Shown: positions 5,061 to 64,000 of the stretch, piece by piece
How the letters are laid out: each line of letters opens with the position of its first letter
Position numbering within the stretch: position 1 is the stretch's first letter
Assembly (NCBI GenBank): GCA_009739215.1
Contig: VSJF01000002.1
Span: 496,001 to 560,000 of the forward strand
DNA length: 64,000 nucleotides
Source: Floccularia luteovirens
Lineage: Eukaryota > Basidiomycota > Agaricomycetes > Agaricales > Squamanitaceae
Direction: 5' to 3'
The notes under the pieces: model-generated
Seen by the model: only the letters and a program-made list of their open reading frames with translations
Databases searched by the model: none
Told to the model about the DNA's origin: nothing
Translations under genes and position numbers: made by a program

Positions 5061-6872
5061 ATGACTCCTACTTTTCAGCAATGCGGTCAGTGCGGTTTTC
5101 CAGACCTTGAAAAGGCACACCCAGATATAGCAGCATCTCCAGTGCTGGAACTCCTTAACACAAACTCAGCACCTTCTGTTTCCGAAGCTAACGCAATTGG
5201 TGTGTACCTCAAAAACGCGGACGAGAATATTGAACACTTGAGGCAACACATAAGGAGCGTAACTTCTGTCCTCGAAAAATTAGAAAATGACCACCATACA
5301 CTGCAACAACGTAGAGACGAGCATCATGCTTTCCTCACACCCTTCCGTCGCCTCTATCCAGATATTTTGGTAGAGATATTTCGTCTTCTCCCAAAGGGCG
5401 TTCCACCGAGAAGGTTACCAAGCGTTTTGGATGGCACTAACACCGCTTCAGGACCTTTGCTGCTTTCACAAGTCTGCAAGTCGTGGCGCGCCGTTGCCCT
5501 GGATACACCAGATTTGTGGACGATGATTCGGATCATTGCTGATGTAGACAAATATAGCCAGACCCAACTTATCAATTTGTGGCTTACACGCTCAAAGACA
5601 CTCCCTTTGACTGTAGGAATCCTAGAATCTACGCAGAGACATTCTCCTGAAGTATACGAATCAGGCGCGTTTTCTGCACGTTGTAGTAGCAACCCAGCCC
5701 TCGCAGCTGTGCTTGACCAGTCTCACAGATGGGAAAATGTCTACTTCATGTTGCCTTCTATTTCTGGCGCATGGGATGGCCTATCACAAATCAAGGACAA
5801 TCTGAAATCAGTACGACTTTTGTCATTTACCGCCTCTAGAGTTCCTCCACCTCAAACTCATTCAACACTCGAATACTTCGCAAACCTCCCTAAAATTCAA
5901 CATCTATCTCTGGATCATGGCACCGCTGTTCATGGCCCAGAGCCCTCAATCTCGAATTTCACCATCATACTCCCATATGATACAATAACTTCTCTTTCAA
6001 TCGTTGACCACAAACAAAAACATGTTTCCATAGAAATTTGTATCGAAATCATCAACCGACTCCGGAATTTACGAGAATGCACCGTGCATTGTGGAACTTT
6101 ATCGAATCCTTCGTATCAGCTTCATCACAGAATAACTCACCCCTTTCTTCATACCCTTGTTATTATTCCACAAATGGGTCACGAGCCATACTTCGGGGAA
6201 GATTCTTCTGACGAGGAAATATCTGATATGGATGAAGACCCATTTGACGATGGACTTGGAATATTGTTTGATTCCCTCGAATTACCCGCTCTGGAACGAT
6301 TGACTTTCTACCAAGAGAAAGGCAGGGCATGGGATTGTCACTGTTTTTCTAGATTTTTGTCGAGATCACCGAATATCAAATTTTTCGAACTGATACTGAA
6401 ATCACGCGACACGATGCTTTCTTCGTTTATAAAGGCCTTACGAAACCTTCCAAGCCTCTCACACTTAGTATACCATGGTTCAAGTTTATTCTACCAAAAC
6501 AACTTCCTCGAAATGCTAGCATTGAAAAAAAATCATCAAGTCCCCTCCCCATTTTTGCCCAACCTTCGCAGATTGGAATTCTGTGTATCAGATTTGGGTT
6601 GTTTCGACGAATTAATGGATATCATCCAAGCTCGAACTTTGCATGCTGAAGATAACCATGTACTTAAACTCGAATTCTTCAAATGTGACGTACAATTCGG
6701 GTATGCAAATGATATAAGGCATACAGGCGATACGCCTCTCGTACTGAATAGACTGATTCGTGATGGAATGCAGATACAATTCACTGTGTCTCAAAAATCC
6801 ATATTCAGTTCTCCCAAATTCCCAAAATATTTGATTTCCGAAACTTATGGCATACCGAGGACTATCTTTTAG
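5061..6872 (+). CDS. F-box-like protein with CxxC leader
   Basis: Intronless 603-aa open frame. The N-terminus carries a CGQCGFPD motif, then a short coiled coil (about residues 50-85). An F-box core follows (RRLYPDILVEIF, then LLLSQVCKSWRAVALDTPDLW, about residues 95-155). The remainder is a leucine-rich, LRR-like fold typical of the expanded F-box families of mushrooms. F-box proteins act as substrate adaptors of SCF ubiquitin ligases via Skp1; the target is unknown. It is closely related in order and motifs to the genes at 10337 and 42213 and to the relics at 8581 and 44020, so this is a dispersed local family. A short acidic insert (EDSSDEEISDMDEDPFDD) sits near residue 385. Confidence 0.85.
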   Translation: MTPTFQQCGQCGFPDLEKAHPDIAASPVLELLNTNSAPSVSEANAIGVYLKNADENIEHLRQHIRSVTSVLEKLENDHHTLQQRRDEHHAFLTPFRRLYPDILVEIFRLLPKGVPPRRLPSVLDGTNTASGPLLLSQVCKSWRAVALDTPDLWTMIRIIADVDKYSQTQLINLWLTRSKTLPLTVGILESTQRHSPEVYESGAFSARCSSNPALAAVLDQSHRWENVYFMLPSISGAWDGLSQIKDNLKSVRLLSFTASRVPPPQTHSTLEYFANLPKIQHLSLDHGTAVHGPEPSISNFTIILPYDTITSLSIVDHKQKHVSIEICIEIINRLRNLRECTVHCGTLSNPSYQLHHRITHPFLHTLVIIPQMGHEPYFGEDSSDEEISDMDEDPFDDGLGILFDSLELPALERLTFYQEKGRAWDCHCFSRFLSRSPNIKFFELILKSRDTMLSSFIKALRNLPSLSHLVYHGSSLFYQNNFLEMLALKKNHQVPSPFLPNLRRLEFCVSDLGCFDELMDIIQARTLHAEDNHVLKLEFFKCDVQFGYANDIRHTGDTPLVLNRLIRDGMQIQFTVSQKSIFSSPKFPKYLISETYGIPRTIF

Positions 6873-7567
6873 AGTGTTCGAAGGTATCACGCAGTGTTCT
6901 ACAAACTGTGGTAAAGTCCACTTACCAGCTTCATTTTTAGATATCCCATAATACGACAGTATCTTCCGATTTCGAACCGAGAATTTTGGTGACGACACAC
7001 GAATATTAGCTTCGGCTACATAGTAGATTTTTTGTAAGAGCTTTTCGAGATAGTAATACTGGTACTTTTGTTGTTGTGGCGATAGATAGATATGTTTAAC
7101 AGTTGTATAAGTACTTTTAGTGTCTAACCATTCGAGCAAGCTAGCACATAGTATCAATAAGGTTGGCAGCGCGGATTTGGGGAGCTGTCAGATGGATGAC
7201 TGCACCAATAAACGTAAAAACAAAATGAAAAGCTATTTCGTTGCCCCAACACTCACATTATTTACTACCTACAAAACCCCTACCATCTCTCTAATCCATC
7301 TCTATATTTTGTATGCTACTCATGTTGTTCCTCAATCATGATGACTTTCTTTTGTTCGTTCACTTTCCATATTTCTCCCTCACGATGCGCTAGCGAGGTT
7401 CATTTGACCGGAAGGTATGGAGATAGATTCAACATTTCATTTTTTTTTCAACAAATAGTACAATAAAAGGGCAAACTTCTACTCCCCGCCATCGGGTTCA
7501 GCCTGTACAAAATTATAAAAATGTTAGTATATAGTATTACTGTTAATAGTTCATGTACCTTTTTATA
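6873..7567. other. Intergenic between convergent genes
   Basis: About 0.7 kb between the F-box stop and the stop of the minus-strand coiled-coil gene. It contains a T-run at 7441-7448. I see no coding or RNA gene. Confidence 0.5.
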
Positions 7568-8184
7568 TCATGGTGCCCGGGAACCCAGATAATTGGCTAC
7601 CAATCTGCGCATTTCCTCGACGGTCGGATTGTCTGTGAATGGTTGGATACCCAATTCATCTAGTGCCGTCTGACATTGGGCGGCTGTCATCTGAATAAGT
7701 GCATCTTGGCTCAGCGGGACTAGATTGGTGTCTATCCCAGCAGGATAGACAAGAAGTGCAGTGGGGCCAGTGGCCTGTGCATTGGTTAAGCGTATTAATG
7801 ACATGCTTTCACTGAAATAAACATGGGATTATTGATAACTTATAACAATATAGAAACTACTTACGATAGGTTAAACCGTGCAAGAAGTTGATCAAAGCGC
7901 CCATTGAGCAGACCTAAATTGTGATCTATTCGACCCATGTTTTGTTCAGAGCGCCCATTGAGCAGACCCACATTTTGATCTAGTCGACCGGTGTTTTGTT
8001 CCAAGCGCTCATTGAGCAGACCCAATTTTTGATCCAGTCGACCCACGTTTTGTTGGATATGGTTGAGTTGTCCTATGATAGGAGTGAGGGCACCATCGAG
8101 TGCTTGTTGGAAATCTTGTGCTGGTGGCTGATTCAAAGGGATGCGAGAGATCTCCTCTGCGAGCGTGGTGTGAGCAGCTGCCAT
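7568..8184 (-). CDS. Coiled-coil protein with Mug135-like C-terminal domain
   Basis: Two exons, complement(7568-7811, 7865-8184), over a gtaagt...tttcag intron. They total 188 codons, giving 187 aa. Residues about 25-105 are a coiled coil built from near-repeats of a 16-residue unit of the type NxGLLNGRxEQNxGRxD, visible as about four tandem DNA repeats at 7880-8050. The C-terminal part (LTNAQATG..., then ...ALIQMTAAQCQTALDELGI... ending ...RRLVANYLG) resembles the Mug135 C-terminal domain family, first named from a fission-yeast meiotically upregulated gene and common in Agaricomycetes. The molecular role is unknown. The family call rests on remembered pattern and is moderate. The coiled coil itself is clear. 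Confidence 0.65.
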
Positions 8185-10070: not shown

Positions 10071-10336
10071 TTGGCGTATTATTTCTTGGAGGGGAAGATT
10101 GTTTTTTTGGCAGTGGTATTATCAGTGCTTGATGTCTTGTTGTCATTACACGCGGTGCAAAATAGCGATTCCCAGCTTGTATATGTACATATGCTCGAAC
10201 CCAACTGCAATTTTTAAATTTGTTATTTGGGCTGAATAATCCCCACACAAAAATGGACTACTTTTTACTTTTAATTGACCTCAAAATATCACTCAATCAA
10301 TGCACACACTCTTTCTTCCTACGTTCATCTCTGGTA

Positions 10337-12088
10337 ATGGACTCATTCAAGGATTGCAGTCAATGCGGTTTACATGATGTCGACGACACAGTTGATGACA
10401 CTGTATCCCCAATACCAGAGCTTCTAGGTACAAATTCCGTGCCTTCAAATGACCAGGTCGATGCTATCAAAGCTTATCTCGGAAACATGGATCAGAAAAT
10501 TGATTACTTGGACGAGCATATTGATCATATGGAGTCCGCCCTTCGAAAACTGAAGCACAAACGCAGTATCCTACAACAGCAGAGAGAACAACATCATTAC
10601 TTCCTCACACCTTCACGTCGTCTGTATCCCGATATTCTAGCAGAGATATTTTTGTTTTGCTCAGGAGGGTCAAAACGAAAGCGGCTACCTGATGTTCTTG
10701 ACAACTTTGATCCCTTTTCCGGCCCTTTGGTGCTTACGCGTGTCTGCAGAAGTTGGCGCGCCGTTGCATTGCATACGCCCGAACTATGGACTTCGATAAG
10801 GATCGTCGCTGATACACTCAAGTTTGGCCACGCGCAGCTTACCAATTTATGGCTTTCGCGGTCAGGGAATCGTCCTCTGACCGTCGCTATCTTGGAGGCT
10901 ACGAGGAAATATTCTCATTCGTCATACGAGCCAGAGGCATTTTCATTTCAACATTATAGCAATAACCAAGCCCTCACAGCTGTAATTAGCCAGTGCCATC
11001 GCTGGCAGAATGTTTATATTATGCTCCCATCAGTCCCTATTGCCTGGAAAGCGCTTTCATGCATCAAAAACAATTTGAATTCTTTACGACGTTTGTCGGT
11101 TAGTGTTTCACGAGGCTCTTTAGCGATTTCAGGCGGGTTTGTTATTGATTACTTCGAAAATCTTCCCAACGTATATCACCTCTCCTTGGATCATTGTACA
11201 TCCCTTCTCCATGCAGGGCCTACTATCTCAAGGTTCGCTGTTAAACTCCCATGTGACAAAATCACCTCACTCTTGATCCTTGTCCACAAACGAACACCTG
11301 CCACTGTAGAAGCGTGTATCGAAGCCATACACTGCCTTCCGCAACTACAGGAATGCGTTCTTCATTGTGGGATTTCACTTGCAACTTCACATGCTACAAA
11401 GACACTGATCCATTCCCACCTCCATACCTTGGAAATTGTTGCTGAAGGAACCTTTTCACACGTCTTTAATGATTCTGAAGACGAAATTCCTGGTATTGTT
11501 GATGAACTAAACACCGTCGATGATGGACTTGGAGCTTTGTTCGACAGCCTCCATCTACCAGCTCTGAAACAATTAAGTATCAACCAGAAAAGCGGCAGGA
11601 GGTGGAATCACCACTATCTCTATCGATTTATATTGAGATCGCCGGATATCGAATTTCTCAAGTTAATCAATGTACCGGGAGATAAAATCCCAGCTTCGTT
11701 TGTCAGGGCACTTTGGGGACTATCAAATGTCACCCACTTGGTCCTGGACGGCCTAAGTTACTTCAAAACATATTCCTCCTTATTAGAATACCTGGCTTTC
11801 AAATGCAACGACCAATATGATGTTCCATTCCTCCCAAAGCTCCGCATATTAGAACTCAAAGTGGACGAATTCTGTTCTTTTGGTAGTTTTTTGGACATTC
11901 TACAGGCTCGGACACTATACGCAGAAGAAAACCACGCCTCCAAATTGAAATGTTTCAAGTATCATGCAGAGGTTGAATATCCAGATGACATACTAGTTAT
12001 ACGCGCATCGCTGGATGAACTAGCTAGTGCTGGGTTGGAAATACAAATGTCTGCCGATATGATACACCCACCAACTGGTTCGTGGTGA
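10337..12088 (+). CDS. F-box-like protein with CxxC leader
   Basis: Single-exon gene of 583 aa. I place the start at 10337, not at the upstream ATG at 10220, because only from here does the N-terminus (MDSFKDCSQCGLHD) match the CxxC leader of the related genes at 5061 and 42213. The layout is: acidic leader, shared SPIPELLGTNSVPS segment, coiled coil (about 50-85), F-box (RRLYPDILAEIF, TRVCRSWRAVALHTPELW), then an LRR-like region. The frame is intact to a TGA at 12088. The likely role is an SCF substrate adaptor, by family inference; no partner is visible. Confidence 0.85.
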   Translation: MDSFKDCSQCGLHDVDDTVDDTVSPIPELLGTNSVPSNDQVDAIKAYLGNMDQKIDYLDEHIDHMESALRKLKHKRSILQQQREQHHYFLTPSRRLYPDILAEIFLFCSGGSKRKRLPDVLDNFDPFSGPLVLTRVCRSWRAVALHTPELWTSIRIVADTLKFGHAQLTNLWLSRSGNRPLTVAILEATRKYSHSSYEPEAFSFQHYSNNQALTAVISQCHRWQNVYIMLPSVPIAWKALSCIKNNLNSLRRLSVSVSRGSLAISGGFVIDYFENLPNVYHLSLDHCTSLLHAGPTISRFAVKLPCDKITSLLILVHKRTPATVEACIEAIHCLPQLQECVLHCGISLATSHATKTLIHSHLHTLEIVAEGTFSHVFNDSEDEIPGIVDELNTVDDGLGALFDSLHLPALKQLSINQKSGRRWNHHYLYRFILRSPDIEFLKLINVPGDKIPASFVRALWGLSNVTHLVLDGLSYFKTYSSLLEYLAFKCNDQYDVPFLPKLRILELKVDEFCSFGSFLDILQARTLYAEENHASKLKCFKYHAEVEYPDDILVIRASLDELASAGLEIQMSADMIHPPTGSW

Positions 12089-40421: not shown

Positions 40422-41896
40422 ATGCCTTCCATTAACACAAACTTCCATCTCTCTCCAGTTGGCAAAGAACTCATCCTATTCGATGGTCCCAACCCAACAA
40501 AACCTTCTCCAAAATTCAAAAATGTTCTCGTCATCGGAGGTGGCGTCACAGGATTAACCGTAAATATCAACCACAATATATGTAATTCTGGATACCACTG
40601 ACATTTCGATTTGTTAGACTGCCTGGAGCTTACTCGACGCTGGTTACGGAGTCACAGTAGTGTCCGAGAAATGGGCAGCATTACCCGAGCGTATCACCTC
40701 CCAGATTGCTGGTGCCCTGTATGCATTCCATTTGCAGTTCCTAATCACACACTCACATCAGATCGTTCAGTTGGGAATGCCCCCCGCAGTCTGTGGAAAA
40801 CATCAAAATTATATATCACTTGAAAAGTCAAAGGAATGGTGCATGACATCCTACCGCAACTTTGAGACCATCATGCACATTCTTCCCGTTGAAGACCACG
40901 GCATCAGGATGCGCATTGCCAACTTCTTCTTCTCGCAACCCCTCGAGAACATGCCCGGACAGATGAAGAAAATGATTGAGATCCAATCTACACCCGAGGC
41001 ATGCATTGCTCGCTTCTATTTATTCGTGACACGTGCTTATAATGAACTTGTTTTTGCAGATTCAAGGATTCCATCGCGATCGCAGTTTGATCACAAAACA
41101 CAATGTAAACCAGGAAGCTGGTGTTGTCGACTCATACAAACACGATGCTCCTGTCATTGACACCGATCGTTACATGTTCTGGTTGCGCGACGTTGTCACT
41201 GCAAAGGGTGGAAAACTGGTGTCAGAAAAGGTCACTGGTGATCTCGTCAAGCAGGAAAAGCACCTCCTTTCCAAGTACAATGTTGATGCAATTGTCAATG
41301 CGTCTGGGCTTGGTGCTGCGGATCTGGCATCTGACCCTACTGTATACCCACTACGAGGAGCATTGATCCGGGTGATCAATGATGGGAAGAAGTTCCCAAA
41401 GGTGACGGAGGCACTTTGTGTGTCGCATGATGATACACAAGGGAAGGATATTGAGGATATTGTGTTCATTGTTCCCCGCAATGACGAGACCCTGATCTTG
41501 GGAGGCAAGCAAGCTTTGAATACACAAATGCTATCAATATACTGACATATATAATACAATATAGGCATTGCGCAAACAGCGAACACGTTGGACTTGAATC
41601 TGGACAGCCCAGAAATCCTCCGGATGCGCAAACGTTGCAATGACTTCGTTCCTGGACTGGAGAATGCCGAATTCGACTCATCTCCATTTGTTCAAGGACT
41701 CCGTCCATGCACTCTTGACAATGTACGAGTTGAGCGTGACCTTCGACAGAAAGGTAGCAGGGTTGTGCACTCTTATGGACAAGGTGGATCTGGATTCACG
41801 TTGTCATTCGGATGCGCTGGGGACATTCTTGAGATTATCAAGGAGATGGAATGTGAAGTTCCGGCAGTAAATGAAATTGTCAAGGCGCATTTGTAG
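40422..41896 (+). CDS. D-amino-acid oxidase-like FAD oxidoreductase, copy A, frameshifted
   Basis: Five exons, join(40422-40559, 40618-40718, 40771-40998, 41060-41504, 41565-41896). The protein is a DAAO-type flavoenzyme: FAD-binding VLVIGGGVTGLT, the SQIAGAL segment, PPAVCGKH, VNASGLGAADLASD, RGALIRV, and the C-terminal HSYGQGGSGFTLSFG. Such enzymes oxidise D-amino acids to keto acids, ammonia and H2O2. Exon 3 is one base shorter than in copy B (ATGCCCCCC at 40777 against ATGGCCCCCC). This breaks the LWEWPPAVCG segment, so the chain sums to one base short of whole codons. Introns 3 and 4 both use GC donors; copy B has GT at intron 4. A peroxisomal location is typical of the family, but the C-terminus (VKAHL) is not a canonical SKL signal. 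Confidence 0.85.
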
Positions 41897-42212: not shown

Positions 42213-43955
42213 TCAACATTCAGGTGGTCTGAAACCGGGAGATGCAAATATACCCGTCTTTTTTACAGATAATTGTATCTGTAACCTATCATTAACCAAC
42301 CCATCCAGCGTGGTACGTGTCTCTTCTGAAAAGTCTGTAGCTGTGCCTGATTCCGCTTCATAATTTAAGAATTCAAGTCGAAAGACGTGTTTTTCTTCCG
42401 CACGTAACGTTCGAGATAGTAAGATCTCCACTAAACCAGAGGTTATATGACTTTCCAATTCCCTCAATTCCAATTTCCGGAGTTCCTTGAAATATATTGA
42501 GGGATGCTGGTATTGGAGGGTCAAGTTTTCCATGAGGGAGGTATGATAGGAAAAGTTAAAACCGTGGATTATTAAGTGGCGGACCTCCGATAATTTTTCT
42601 AGTGCCGTCATAAAAGAATACGGAATCGGTGTCTCCGACGTAACCATCAGCTCGAAAAAAGGTGATATTTGGTGAGCTTGTCAAAAACGTAGAAAAATGT
42701 TCATGGTTCCATATTCTGTCGCCTTTCAAACTCAAGGTCAACCGTTCGAGAGCGGGTAGAGTAAGACTGCTGAACAGAGTGCTCAAGCCGTCTTCCGGAT
42801 CTATGCCGAGTGTGCTAATGTCAGGTAAGTTAAGACTATCTTCGGCAATGACAACAAGGGCACGAAGGTGGGGGAGAATTTGGTGAGGAGGTTGCCAGGT
42901 GGGGTCCAACATTCTTCCACAGTGAACGATACATTTTTGCAAATTCGGGAGGCAATGAATGGTTTCAATACAAGCTTCGGTAGATATTGGATTTTGTCCA
43001 TGGAGAAGAATTGACAATGAAGTTATTTGGTCATATGGCAGTTTAACCATCAACTTCGAATCCGAGTGTACTGTGCCGTGAAAGGCAGTCCCATAGTCCA
43101 GTGAAACGTGTTGTATTTTAGGAAGATTCTCAAAGTAGTCAATAACAAAAGGATCTGGATTCTCCAGATTTTCCCGGGACGAATTGAAGGATATGTGTCG
43201 TACAGAGCCTAGATGATCTCTGATCCTTGAAAATGCGTCCCAAGCCCCCGAAATGGAGGGGAAACTAAAATAGACATTCTCCCAACGATGACACTGATCA
43301 AGCAAAGCTCTAAGGGCTGGATTCTTGTTGCACTGGAGAACATATTTTCCGGACATGTACTTTTCGAGGGAAATTTTTCTTCTCGAGTCTAAAATCGCTA
43401 TGGTCAGAGGGAGGGACTTTGACCGGGTAAGCCATAACCGTGTAAGCTGATCCTGCTTATGCGAGCATGGGTGGATACAACTCTTATTGTTGTCCATAAC
43501 TCGGGTGTGTCCAAAGCCACTGCACGCCAGGAACTGCAAATACGTGTAAGTAGTAAAGGACCTAATGTAGAACTTGTAGTGTCAGGGACATCAGGAAGCC
43601 TTTTCTGTACCACTCCCCCTAAGCAGAAAACGAATATTTCTGACAGAATCTCGGGGTAGAGGCGACGGATGGGCGCAAGGACTGCATGGTGATTGTGCTC
43701 GCGTTGTTGCAAATCTTGATACTCGTTTTGTAAAGTGTTGAGAACAGATTTTACGCTGGTTATATGTTGCCCCAGGTGCTCAATATCCTTGTCCACAGTT
43801 CGTAGATACGCATCGATTAAGCGAACTTGAGGCATCGAGGGTACAGAATTAGTGCCAAGGAGCTCCGGTATTGGTGACACAATGTCTGGGTGTATCTCAT
43901 CATGATCTGGGAAATTACATCGATTGCATGTTTGAAAGGTAGAAAGAGTCATCAC
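42213..43955 (-). CDS. F-box-like protein, two frameshifts (possible pseudogene)
   Basis: Same architecture as the genes at 5061 and 10337: CNRCNFPDHDE leader, SPIPELLGTNSVPS, coiled coil, F-box (RRLYPEILSEIF, TRICSSWRAVALDTPELW), LRR-like region, and an end in FASPGFRPPEC. The frame is interrupted twice. A base is missing near 43440 between the post-F-box segment and DQLTRLWLTRSKS. One T too many sits in a T6 run (42655-42660 on the plus strand, A6) between SSPNITFF and ELMVTSETP. Otherwise no stop codons occur. It is the closest relative of the pseudogene at 8581-10070. Its position beside the dynamin relic suggests it was inserted into, or replaced, a third dynamin copy. Confidence 0.75.
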
Positions 43956-44876: not shown

Positions 44877-46353
44877 ATGCCTTCCATTAACACAAACTTC
44901 CATCTCTCTCCAGTTGGCAAAGAACTCATCCTATTCGATGGTCCTAACCCAACAAAACCTTCTCCAAAATTCAAAAATGTTCTCGTCATCGGAGGTGGCG
45001 TCACAGGATTAACCGTAAATATCAACCACAATATATATAACTCTTGACATCACTGACATTTCGGTTTGTTAGACTGCCTGGAGCTTACTCGATGCTGGTT
45101 ACGGAGTCACAGTAGTGTCCGAGAAATGGGCAGCATTGCCCGAGCGTATCACCTCACAAATTGCTGGTGCCCTGTATGCATTCCATTTGCAGTTCCTAAT
45201 CACACACTCACATCAGATCGTTCAGCTGGGAATGGCCCCCCGCAGTCTGTGGAAAACATCAAAATTATATATCACTTGAAAAGTCAAAGGAATGGTGCAT
45301 GACATCCTACCGCAACTTTGAGACCATCATGCACATTCTTCCCGTTGAAGACCACGGCATCAGGATGCGCACTGCCAACTTCTTCTTCTCGCAACCCCTC
45401 GAGAACATGCCCGGACAGATGAAGAAAATGATTGAGATCCAATCTACACCCGAGGCAAGCATTGCTCGCTTCTATCTATTCATGACTTACCCTTATAACA
45501 AACTTGATTTGCAGATTCAAGGGTTCCATCGCGATCGCAGTTTGATCACAAAACACAATGTAAACCAGGAAGCTGGTGTCGTTGACTCGTACAAACACGA
45601 TGCTCCTGTCATTGACACCGATCGTTACATGTTCTGGTTGCGCGACGTTGTCACTGCAAAGGGTGGAAAACTGGTGTCAGAAAAGATCACTGGTGATCTC
45701 GTCAAGCAGGAAAAACACCTCCTTGCCAAGTACAATGTCGATGCGATTGTCAATGCGTCTGGGCTTGGTGCTGCGGACCTGGCATCTGACCCTACTGTAT
45801 ACCCACTACGAGGAGCATTGATCCGAGTGATCAATGATGGGAAGAAGTTCCCAAAGGTGACAGAAGCACTTTGTGTGTCGCATGATGATACACAAGGGAA
45901 GGATATTGAAGATATTGTGTTCATTGTCCCTCGAAACGACGAGACCTTGATCTTGGGAGGTAAGCAAACTTTTTTGAATACTCAGGTGGTATCAGTATAC
46001 TGACTTTATTATACAATATAGGCATTGCACAGACTGCTAACACGCTGGACTTAAACCTGGACAGCCCAGAAATCCTCCGGATGCGCAAACGTTGCAATGA
46101 CTTCGTTCCTGGACTGGAGAATGCTGAATTCGACACATCTCCATTTGTTCAAGGACTCCGTCCATGCACTCTTGACAATGTGCGAGTTGAGCGTGATCTT
46201 CGACAGAAAGGAAGCAGGGTTGTGCACTCATATGGGCAAGGTGGATCTGGATTCACGCTGTCTTTTGGATGTGCTGGGGACATTCTTGAGATTATCAAGG
46301 AGATGGAACGTGAAGTTCCGGTAGTGAATGAATTTGTCAAGGCGCATTTGTAG
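44877..46353 (+). CDS. D-amino-acid oxidase-like FAD oxidoreductase, copy B, intact
   Basis: Five exons, join(44877-45014, 45073-45173, 45226-45454, 45515-45959, 46022-46353), 415 codons (414 aa), all phases consistent. Motifs are as in copy A, with the conserved LWEWPPAVCGKH intact. VLVIGGGVTGLT binds the FAD dinucleotide near residue 40. YMFWLRDVVTAKGGKLV and VNASGLGAADL lie in the middle. HSYGQGGSGFTLSFGCAGD closes the FAD site near the C-terminus. Intron 3 (after 45454) is GC-AG (gcaagc), with the same GC class in copy A. Intron 4 has a normal GT. It converges on dynamin copy B, 250 bp away, an arrangement that appears ancestral to the locus. The substrate cannot be read from sequence. 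Confidence 0.9.
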
Positions 46354-60360: not shown

Positions 60361-61336
60361 TCATGACAAGTCCATGGGACCCTCTCCTTCTGCAGGGAAA
60401 CACAGCTCTGATTCTTCGACTGCAGCTTCATCATCATCTTCATTCCAATCACTTGTAGTCTCCCACTCATTTTCAAATTCAATATCAATAGAAAGCTCTT
60501 CTTCTCCATTCGTTGTGTCTGTCAGCGGTAAGAATGACGCTAGCTGTGGAGGTTGGAATGTTGACGGGTTGTGAGTGATAGGTTGTACCCATCGCCGTTC
60601 ACGAAGGCGTTTATGTCGTTCCCTGTCCTCTTCAATCCGTTTGAAAACTTCGTTGCGCGAAAGTGGGTGATGACTCGCAGAATCACCGTCTGAAGCCGAA
60701 AGAGCGGAGTTGCGAGTTTCCAGAAACGAAAGGACATCGTCGACCTTTTGTGGATCGATCACACGTTTACTCCTCCAGCTCTCCAATATCTGAAGCAATA
60801 TTAGTATCATACAGCCTCATAGGAGACCATCCCTTGAAACAAACCTGTTTTGTGCTAACGAGATTTGGAAGGCCTGGTCTTCCTTCTGGTACAACTGATT
60901 CCACAATTTTTGCCAAATCTCGAGAAACAAATGTGACATAAAGAGTATTTCCACTGCTGCTTTCTGTTCTGACAGGGTTCGCACGCGACTTCACGAGAAG
61001 ACATGTTTCACACAACGAATCTAAAAAATATAGAATGTTGATTCTCGAGTTGATGGATCCCTGTGGAAATGGGTTGGGTTGGGTAAACTAAAGATGTTTC
61101 AAGCCATAGTTGTGAGAGAATATTTGACCTTCTGACATTCCTCAACTATACAATCCCATAAATCCTCACCGCATGGCGGGAAGTATTTTACGGCAAAACC
61201 TACAACTCTCTGAATGGATTGCTGAGAGCTAGTTCAGCATTAATTCATGCATAAGCTGTAAGTAAAAAAACTGTACTAACGCGTTAAGTCGCCGTAATAA
61301 AGCAAGGAATTGCATCCTCACTTCGAAAGGGTCCAT
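60361..61336 (-). CDS. CTK3: CTD kinase subunit gamma, Ctk3
   Basis: Four exons, complement(60361-60789, 60845-61060, 61129-61228, 61281-61336), 267 codons (266 aa), all in phase. Ctk3 is the non-catalytic gamma subunit of the CTDK-I kinase that phosphorylates Ser2 of the RNA polymerase II C-terminal domain. The N-terminal CID-like fold starts MDPFEVRMQFLALLRRLNAS, with SIQRVVGFAVKYF, EDLWDCIVEECQKGSINSR and NILYFLDSLCETCLLVKSR. It is followed by the Ctk3 C-terminal hallmark VPEGRPGLPNLVSTKQ and ILESWRSKRVIDPQKVDDVL. The tail is acidic (WNEDDDEAAVEESE). Its stop lies 95 bp from the UTP20 stop, so the two genes converge tightly. Confidence 0.93.
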
Positions 61337-62625
61337 AATAAGAGTCGTTGGAGTCCGCAGAAACAAGCAAAAATAGTTACTCAAGAAATATCCGAGTTAA
61401 TGGCGAGTGTGACCACAAAAATTACTTTGTTTGGGTTTGTTATATCCCGAGACCATCGCCGTGACGCTGTTAGCGAAATATCGAACCTGAGAAAGTGTGA
61501 GATCCATCCTTCAAATACTGTTTCAGATGCTCAGGTCAGAAACACCCAAATAACAAACGTTGGCAGTCTTCTGACTTAAATTGATGCTTTGTCATGGCTA
61601 ACCATGACACATGTGGGAATCCAGGAGAATTATGAATAATAACATTCTACATACAAGTTATCCATCCACTCCCAGCCACAGGCTAATCTACACGACTGAT
61701 CTCGGTACCTTTGCTTATGATTATCAATCTTATCTGTGGATTGAAGTATTGCCAATGCGGACCTTCATGTTTGTACAAGTGTACGAATGTGATGAAAAAT
61801 GCTGTAGAGATGACAAACACCTTTTGACGGGTCCCTTTACCGAACATCCTTTCCATCTTCCAATGATTTAAGATACTATAGTTATAGGTAAGAGCTTCCT
61901 ATAGCAAAGAAAAAAAATCCCTCCTTCTTGAACTTACAGTTTTCCAGATATACACACAGCATTCCCAATTGACAACTGATTGATAATGCTCTAGGGTCAT
62001 ATACAACGGAATGTAGTCGATGACTGATCAACAGATCAAACACCACAACATGCGGTACTCAAGCACTGTGTTACTGTTTTTAGATTCTTGTCAGTTATAA
62101 CGCCGCCTTTGATTAGTGATGGATTCACGCTGCCACATTTACCGGGATGATCTGATACTTGAACATCAGGGACAAGACTATGAAACTGATGGTTTATATT
62201 TAATTATGTTTTTCGTAAGCTTCGACGCTGATGAGGTACGTTCTGAAAACATTACCATAATCTCTACCAAACAGCTATAAGATGCAAGCTATTCATGTGC
62301 AAACAAGCTGTGCATTCTCGGAAATAGCTGTATCTCAGTACTACTTTCACCGCGAGGCATTTGGAGTCGGTCAGTCCCAGAGAATTTGCATAACAGCGGA
62401 AGAATTCAGAACATTTATAGGCATAGTCCACCATATCAAACACATATCGGATCAGTTCCACATCTACATACAGGCCAATGGCGGATACATTTATTTCGTT
62501 ATGTTTATACATCCCATTCCCCTACATATTTCTGCCTGTGCTGAACCGAGAAGACTGATAAGTATAGTTCGCGCAATACAATATATCAACGCGTTACCTA
62601 AAATTTGGGTCCGCAGGATACCGAC
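61337..62625. other. Intergenic, no gene seen
   Basis: About 1.3 kb upstream of Ctk3 and downstream of the repeat-peptide gene. Open frames at 61310-61871 and 62264-62644 have no recognisable features and no supporting splice structure. Confidence 0.4.
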
Positions 62626-62979
62626 CTACTCCCTGTCCAACTGAGGCCCGCGTTTGCTGCTAGCGTCCCTCTCTCTGAATAGCTGCGGCTCGCGTTTAGT
62701 GTCTGTGTCCCTCTCTCTGAATAGCTGAGGTTCGCGTTTAGTGTCGGCATTCCTCTCTCTGAATAGCTGAGGTTCGCGTTTAGTGTCGGCATTCCTCTCT
62801 CTGAATAGCTGAGGCTCGCGTTTACTCTCGGCGTCCCTCTCCTTGAATAGCTGAGGGCTTCGTTTGTTACTTGGAACAACGACTTCGCTTTTATCCAACG
62901 GGGCGGCGTTAACCCCCGAGGCAATTGCAGAGAGGATGAATAGGGCAGCAAGAGAGATTTTGGTAAGACGAGCGAACAT
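62626..62979 (-). CDS. Secreted Kex2-processed repeat peptide precursor
   Basis: An intronless 117-aa preproprotein. I choose the Met at 62979 because it starts a clear signal peptide (MFARLTKISLAALFILSAIA, cleavage probably near residues 25-26). The upstream in-frame extension would bury it. After a short pro-region come six Lys-Arg pairs at residues 39-40, 53-54, 67-68, 81-82, 95-96 and 109-110, exactly 14 apart. They enclose five 12-residue units: SPQLFKERDAES, EPQLFRERNADT (twice), EPQLFRERDTDT and EPQLFRERDASS, plus a truncated GPQLDRE end. This is the layout of Kex2-cleaved repeat proteins (KEPs), which include ascomycete alpha-pheromones and dikaritin RiPP precursors. The units have no Tyr or Cys, so neither class is indicated. 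Function unknown; the peptides are probably secreted. Confidence 0.85.
   Translation of the reverse strand: MFARLTKISLAALFILSAIASGVNAAPLDKSEVVVPSNKRSPQLFKERDAESKREPQLFRERNADTKREPQLFRERNADTKREPQLFRERDTDTKREPQLFRERDASSKRGPQLDRE
62643..62865. repeat. 42-bp coding tandem repeats
   Basis: About five tandem copies of a 42-bp unit inside the repeat-peptide gene, each beginning with the Lys-Arg codons. Two adjacent copies (about 62728-62811) are essentially identical, while outer copies differ mainly in the Asp/Asn-Ala/Thr positions. Confidence 0.85.
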
Positions 62980-64000
62980 GTTGTATATGCCTTGTGATGG
63001 GGACTGAGTATCTCGTTGGGTGGTTTTTACTGACGACTTGTAAGTTTTACAAGGCTTTTTATATGTATTCATCCAAGGTCCTATTTGGGACCACTGCTGC
63101 GATCTCGTGGAGTTTTACAAACACTGATCCGAATATATCCTGCGTTTCGAAAGCGCAGAATAACCGAGCGCCCAAACCAACGATTTCCAGGACCCCTGCA
63201 TGTCCAACTTCAGAGATAATGAGTAAATAAGTTGGGGACAAACCTAGCTCGCAAGGTAGACATTATATCCCTTCCCTTGATTGCAGCAAGAACTAATCAG
63301 ACCCGTAATCACCAAGCCACTAGCCGATGCTAAAGCATATGTGCAATGAGACTCTATAGGTACCCATATTCAAAATGAAAAAAATCCATCAAGCTACAAA
63401 GGTGAAATTACTAATTCATGCAATACAACAAAAATACCCAACATAGATGATAAAGCGATCGATACTTGATCCTGAGATTATTGGTGAAGTTTAAGAAAAT
63501 AACAGTCAGTGTGCTAATTAACGTTGTATCCGGAAATCTTACTTAACCGAATGGTGTGTGAACCATTTTTGATTTCACTGTTACACAGCTGCTTAGCGAT
63601 ATTTTCATCCCTGAATCAAGCCATGCAATTGCAGCGAGTCGGTACCGTTGGTACACAAACCGACCTGAACTCCTAATTCTCCCGAAGTGATTTGTGCAAG
63701 GAAATGTCCAAGGAATGTCCATTGCCCGTGTGCCCGTTTGATTCCCCCAGGTATAGACCTTTTCAAGTTGGTTTGCCTCCATACCATTACAGTTATAACA
63801 GAAAGAGCGCGAGACTAGCCATTAATGACAGCACTGCCATCCGGATAGCAAAATCTCCAAGCTCGTTTGATGTTTTTCGCCAAAATTACATGAGCGCATC
63901 CGAGGTCAACGGGCGGTGATATTCAACTTCTAACAGAGCACCCATCAATCCGCTTAGAATGGAGATCTGTAATATACCCGAATTGCCTGTTCGAAAGTCG
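62980..64000. other. Right-end stretch, promoter of repeat-peptide gene and unassigned sequence
   Basis: The first 100 bp hold the promoter of the repeat-peptide gene. Minus-strand frames at 63543-63787 (TWGNQTGTRAMDIPW in one, GHFLAQITSGELGVQVGL in another) might be exons of a gene running off the window. I do not recognise them and could not build a splice chain. Confidence 0.4.
63053..63064 (-). promoter_or_regulatory. TATA box of the repeat-peptide gene
   Basis: On the minus strand ATATAAAAAGCC lies about 75-85 bp before the chosen start codon. This is a plausible TATA element, consistent with a strongly or conditionally expressed short gene. Confidence 0.45.

Follow-up and report, generated by a model that had tools for sequence, protein, structure and literature searches.

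Organization of the Locus

Within the window, by which the whole analysed stretch of 64,000 nucleotides is meant, an open reading frame (ORF) of 117 aa occupies positions 62626..62979 of the minus strand, starting with ATG at 62979 and ending with TAG at 62626-62628. The following features were assigned to it and to its flanks:

62626..62979, minus strand: predicted ORF of a KEX2-processed repeat protein (KEP) precursor, intronless-looking, 117 aa (ORF reading, repeat scan and splice models)
62905..62979, minus strand: signal-peptide-like segment, residues 1-25 (MFARLTKISLAALFILSAIASGVNA), with a putative cleavage site at its end (hydropathy; helix in the AlphaFold2 model)
62866..62904, minus strand: pro-segment, residues 26-38 (APLDKSEVVVPSN), reaching the first KR (sequence)
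62629..62865, minus strand: six KR-XPQ units with an exact 14-residue period (Tandem Repeats Finder, spacing and substitution analysis)
63058..63063, minus strand: promoter-like TATAAA starting 84 bases 5′ of the ATG (consensus match only)
62490..62495, minus strand: polyadenylation-signal-like AATAAA starting 131 bases 3′ of the stop codon (consensus match only)

The six Lys-Arg sites with an exact 14-residue period, reported in a preliminary description of this locus that did not name the strand, were found as described: KR pairs start at residues 39, 53, 67, 81, 95 and 109, and each of the five intervals measures 14 residues. The same description gave five near-identical units with the consensus EPQLFRER[DN]xxx, which is matched exactly by four of the five full units, while the first one, SPQLFKERDAES, differs, and a sixth, truncated unit has to be added to the count. 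From the N-terminal side, the array reads SPQLFKERDAES, EPQLFRERNADT (twice), EPQLFRERDTDT, EPQLFRERDASS and GPQLDRE, the last unit having Asp in place of Phe and ending with a stop codon at the position occupied by Arg in the others. At the nucleotide level, Tandem Repeats Finder detects it as a 42-nt period present in 5.1 copies with a score of 299, the top of the 8 rows returned for the window. The proposed signal peptide also gained support, both from the nine-residue hydropathy mean, rising up to 2.89 over residues 8-16, and from an apparent cleavage site between VNA and AP, which by inspection agrees with the -3,-1 rule used as a criterion for such sites. An AlphaFold2 model, weak as being built from a single sequence, has a mean pLDDT of 59.6 and a sole helix at residues 10-20, i.e., in the signal segment, and appears in keeping with an unfolded precursor. 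Modelling of introns of 40-130 bases at the 3′ end, with donors from approximately base 310 of the ORF, gave nine models that lengthen the protein, and none of the models adds repeats or creates a CAAX end.

On one side, the gene is flanked by CTK3 (match within 60364-60816, minus strand) and UTP20 (54605 to ~60160, plus strand), and on the other side by two ORFs having no family over the cut-off and an F-box-like ORF just under it; this description relies on a Pfam scan of 20 neighbouring ORFs out of those present in the region. Genome-wide, three matches to UstYa were obtained, on contigs C3 and C21, and none on C14, which carries the KEP gene. Matches to the pheromone receptor family STE3 are found for the most part on C22, further ones being on C21 and, ~731 kb from the KEP gene, on C14. 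The search for STE2 gave no match in this genome and none in the control genomes either, and is therefore uninformative as to its absence. Thus, with UstYa matches missing from the contig and STE3 at this distance, no dikaritin cluster and no mating locus is seen around the gene. A CAAX-type mating pheromone, against which the preliminary description had already argued, was rejected on the same ground and because the protein ends with LDRE, contains no Cys and acquires no CAAX end in missed-intron splice models. As for the UstYa genes themselves (L008 on C3, L009 and L010 on C21), the two located on C21 are separated by ~1.2 kb and lie on opposite strands, and in 80 kb around the UstYa genes of both contigs no frame with at least four equally spaced dibasic sites was found.

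Periodicity and Coding Pattern of the Array

To estimate the role of chance, stop-to-stop frames of at least 50 codons were scanned in the window and in 13 additional loci of 10 kb (one of which sits inside the window), which amounts to ~184 kb of distinct sequence. Over this length, at least four [KR]R sites at equal spacing are present solely in the KEP ORF, and three such sites occur in four other frames. Shuffling the window 20 times in 2-base blocks yielded seven frames with three equally spaced sites and none with four or more.

Since a stop-free 42-nt repeat leaves any frame open, openness alone proves little, and the five full units were therefore compared in all six frames. In the ORF frame pN/pS is 0.33, while the two other frames of the same strand show 1.11 (open) and 1.17 (5 stops), and the antisense frames give 0.89, 1.80 and 0.31 with 5, 9 and 4 stops, respectively. 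The lowest antisense value is thus as low as that of the ORF, so that the pN/pS test by itself cannot choose the strand; the choice is made by stops, which in this antisense frame interrupt four of the five units. A crude count of synonymous changes, which peaked in the antisense frame (28/77 vs 16/77 in the ORF frame), was replaced by this per-site count. The distribution of changes along the unit is uneven: KR, P, Q, L and E of RER undergo no amino-acid change across the six units (pN 0, pS 0.31), and Arg of KR is retained through the synonymous change CGA/CGC, whereas in the five full units the four-residue tail is freer to change (pN 0.29, pS 0.72). Variable nucleotide columns in these five units account for 4/27 in KR plus PQLFRER, 3/3 in the X codon and 9/12 in the tail, the difference between the first and the last of these having Fisher p 0.0005, which is only indicative as the columns come from related copies. 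Read in the ORF frame, the repeat shows a coding-like substitution pattern, six units being few for a selection test.

Search for Related Sequences

Among the 5.8 billion proteins of the database searched, no relative was found either of the whole 117-aa protein at E up to 0.01 (1852 candidates) or of residues 26-117 at E up to 10 (1577 candidates). A 647-aa DUF2828 protein from the window, used as a control, retrieved 903 relatives with E of 1e-20 or lower; among the 120 of them that were listed, identity does not exceed 55% and many named Agaricomycetes are represented. It follows that the database covers this group of fungi, with no close relative of the source organism seen by means of this one protein; a control so long and conserved does not prove that the search would retrieve a short protein made of repeats. 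Together with the several STE3 genes, the DUF2828 relatives indicate that the source is an Agaricomycete. Short genes are frequently absent from annotation, and the search requires shared words, so that a diverged homologue may exist. No second copy of the repeat was found in the fungus's own genome, no NCBIfam model matched the protein, and a literature text search for the core letters, with figures and supplements of KEP surveys outside its scope, returned no paper. Several weak matches were set aside: a C19 sequence similar to the repeat at E 0.04 and 34% identity, which is rich in Glu, Gln and Lys like KREQELFRKQEEQ, has no evident signal peptide and was taken as a chance resemblance of a coiled coil; DUF1411 at E 0.027, under its own cut-off; and three PDB sequences (two PRDM9 zinc-finger and one mL80) at E from 0.09 to 1.

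Class Membership and Predicted Processing

Definitions of KEPs are given by Umemura 2020 (PMC7329392) and Le Marquer 2019 (PMC6339444), and the properties listed there can be compared with the ORF one by one. An N-terminal signal peptide, for which these definitions use SignalP, is indicated here by hydropathy and the -3,-1 pattern only; where three or more repeats in tandem, each of 8 to 100 aa, are required between Kex2 sites, there are five full 12-aa repeats and a partial one; and the share of the protein taken by the repeats, for which the threshold is 15%, is 51% (5 x 12 of 117 residues). For the subset with the STE13 signature, the dipeptide XA or XP right after each Kex2 site is present in six of six units, and a gene predicted to encode a DPP4/STE13-type peptidase is located on C19. 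The attributes of dikaritins, i.e., a nearby UstYa/DUF3328 gene and Tyr in the core, are lacking, the latter being not absolute, as Tyr is reported in 65.6% of repeats of KEPs having UstYa neighbours (PMC7329392). The initial view of the ORF as a Kex2-processed secreted repeat precursor therefore appears well supported by the primary structure, and by sequence the ORF is a regular KEP of the STE13-signature subtype with an orphan core. The suggestion of a new fungal peptide family is justified for the core, which has no relative found, and has to be withdrawn for the class, already named and described (PMC7329392, PMC9769878). KEPs are widespread in fungi, 7878 of them being counted in 1345 of 1461 strains, including 2560 without homologues (PMC7329392), and have been studied in Agaricomycetes (PMC6339444, PMC7329392, PMC9769878), there also by peptidomics (PMC9769878). 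STE13-signature KEPs were noted in Basidiomycota by Le Marquer, according to whom neither Rep1 nor the precursors of cyclic toxic peptides have this signature; hormones were suggested (PMC6339444).

In all six units KR is directly followed by X-P-Q, where X takes three values and X-Pro occurs once per unit. STE13 accepts X-Pro as a substrate dipeptide, and N-terminal Gln is able to cyclise to pyroglutamate. This common start, overlooked when the 12-residue unit was taken as the peptide, suggests trimming by STE13 and a 10-residue pyroglutamyl product; as the units probably arose by duplication, their sharing of XPQ is partly inheritance. A precedent is provided by KEP 490115 of Coprinopsis cinerea, whose XA/XP dipeptides were removed upon expression in Pichia giving QMRPPSW, QYKAPSW and pyro-QYKAPSW; pyroglutamate was also reported on several peptides detected in C. 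cinerea itself, and XA/XP removal was considered likely for Pleurotus KEPs (PMC9769878). The two precursors, compared here by reported features and peptides rather than by sequence homology, have in common a signal peptide, short dibasic-flanked repeats and STE13-type XA/XP followed by N-terminal Gln, which in KEP 490115 was found partly as pyroglutamate, and differ in the Kex2 sites (RR there, KR here) and in the cores, QYKAPSW/QMRPPSW with C-terminal Trp there and QLFRER[D/N]xxx without Trp here (PMC9769878). The succession of a Kex2 site and a STE13 dipeptide is likewise described for other Basidiomycota KEPs of this signature, and alpha-type precursors frequently have a run of XA/XP (PMC6339444), against which the single X-Pro per unit found here is a point of difference that speaks against the proposed trimming. 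With ascomycete MF-alpha-kind precursors the likeness lies in the architecture, that is in the Kex2 and STE13 repeat-precursor logic, no core similarity being claimed. By analogy with these systems, products like pyroGlu-LFRER[D/N]xxx are predicted from the motif; the computed [M+H]+ values are 1232.602 for pyroGlu-LFRERNADT, 1263.596 for pyroGlu-LFRERDTDT, 1191.575 for pyroGlu-LFRERDASS and 1205.580 for pyroGlu-LFKERDAES, and 1475.724, 1506.718, 1434.697 and 1406.691 for the corresponding untrimmed 12-mers.

Candidate enzymes for this route are encoded in the 27-Mb genome. At least one gene matched the P-domain, and its catalytic open frame aligned with yeast Kexin from PDB at E 3.2e-70; the open frame on C19 is of DPP4/STE13 type (E 8.2e-18, specificity predicted from sequence), and a glutaminyl cyclase gene on C16 comprises two matching open frames (E 1e-21 and 2.5e-15). 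Three kex2 genes are reported for C. cinerea (PMC9769878). Kexin, DPP4-type peptidase and glutaminyl cyclase being expected in an Agaricomycete, their presence means consistency with the model and not its proof.

We consider it quite probable that the ORF product is a precursor from which Kex2 cuts linear peptides for secretion. The signal peptide would direct it to the ER and then be removed, kexin would cleave after the six Lys-Arg pairs in late Golgi, and the trailing Lys-Arg would be taken off by a KEX1-type carboxypeptidase. A STE13/DPP4-type dipeptidyl aminopeptidase may then remove the X-Pro dipeptide from the beginning of each unit, and the exposed Gln may turn into pyroglutamate with or without glutaminyl cyclase, so that linear peptides of pyroGlu-LFRER[D/N]xxx type would be secreted; for trimming and cyclisation taken as a separate step, we see about even chances. 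The precursor looks built for the release of up to six short similar peptides. Its expression, its cleavage at every site, the modification of the peptides and their role are what we infer from this organization.

With respect to the role, for which the preliminary description listed signal, defence and wall peptides, our leading guess is an extracellular signal addressed to the fungus itself or to its neighbours, rather than a wall-building or a cyclic toxic peptide; the wall appears the least supported of the three, given the charged units and the reported absence of the STE13 signature from Rep1 (PMC6339444). In C. cinerea, no visible phenotype resulted from knockouts of six KEP genes, and no antibacterial activity was seen with synthetic peptides, as reported in PMC9769878; in view of these knockouts the signalling role here is a guess. 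A more specific version, namely a lineage-specific non-mating mushroom hormone produced via the Kex2/KEX1/STE13 route, capped by pyroglutamate and recognized by its own receptor other than STE2 or STE3, seems to us rather improbable. Basidiomycota mate via prenylated a-type pheromones (PMC9769878), and the KEP literature leaves open why they produce alpha-factor-like precursors as well (PMC6339444, PMC9769878). A small gene like this one, whose cores recur with an exact period and whose product masses are clearly predicted, would be an easy case for peptidomics.

Alternative Explanations

One alternative stays inside the proposed scheme: the KEP may be processed without STE13 trimming, its mature products being full 12-mers (E/S)PQLF(R/K)ER..., in which X-Pro would shield the N-terminus from aminopeptidases. 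The single X-Pro of each unit permits either product, but the DPP4-type gene in the genome and the dipeptide removal documented for C. cinerea KEP in Pichia, and regarded as likely in Pleurotus (PMC9769878), make this version less likely than not. Outside the scheme, the architecture consisting of a signal peptide and KR-flanked repeats is equally that of dikaritin precursors (ustiloxin, phomopsin, asperipin), from whose cores UstYa-type enzymes make cyclic defence compounds. Here, however, 117 residues contain no Tyr, in agreement with the earlier objection to this class, the UstYa matches lie on C3 and C21 and not on the contig of the KEP gene, and among the 20 neighbouring ORFs the only Pfam families over the cut-off are UTP20, CTK3 and DAO, which do not make such a biosynthetic cluster. 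UstYa genes are reported near 103 of 1680 Basidiomycota KEPs (PMC7329392), and a dikaritin at this locus is in our opinion extremely unlikely.

Repellents of Rep1 type consist of hydrophobic, surface-active repeats. Rep1 of Ustilago maydis is also counted among Kex2-processed repeat proteins and its peptides form amyloid-like fibrils (PMC9769878), which makes structural peptides assembling on aerial hyphae conceivable for the KEP gene as well; yet its units bear a strong charge, L and F being the two large hydrophobic residues in 12, and carry the signature that Rep1 is reported to lack (PMC6339444), so that we regard this role as very unlikely. No better are the prospects of an unprocessed secreted tandem-repeat protein of structural function with KR pairs being incidental: six pairs at identical spacing with none lost, their Arg surviving the CGA/CGC change and, as far as a single-sequence AlphaFold2 model may tell, repeats having no predicted fold make it extremely unlikely too. 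The truncated sixth unit with its Asp and its stop codon in place of Arg, together with the failure to find a relative in protein databases, might point to an unexpressed or decaying copy. This is opposed by the open frame with the coding-like substitution pattern and by the TATAAA and AATAAA matches, which lie about where such signals would be expected, and a last unit at the very C-terminus is normal for the class, as the fourth motif of yeast MFalpha1 sits there (PMC6339444); lack of expression or decay is thus considered very unlikely, and a Kex2-processed precursor of linear peptides is the preferred reading.

Other Duplicated and Repetitive Elements

Apart from the KEP gene, other duplicated or repeated sequences were noticed. 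Several F-box-like genes, which by eye look related, share one neighbourhood, being located at 5061-6872, 10220-12088 and 42556-43955 of the window and at 6024-7481 of locus L004, the latter being the sole one of the four subjected to the Pfam scan, where its score was just below the cut-off. Part of a gene for FAD-dependent oxidoreductase (DAO) is present in two plus-strand copies, 41036-41542 and 45302-46000, identical at 157 of 164 residues and representing a local duplication, with the Pfam assignment obtained from the second copy. Finally, a 54-nt tandem repeat of 3.1 copies at 7888-8054 (minus strand) is embedded in an open frame of 112 aa, and its units, like NxGRLDQNxGLLNGRxEQ, look like an 18-residue helical repeat.
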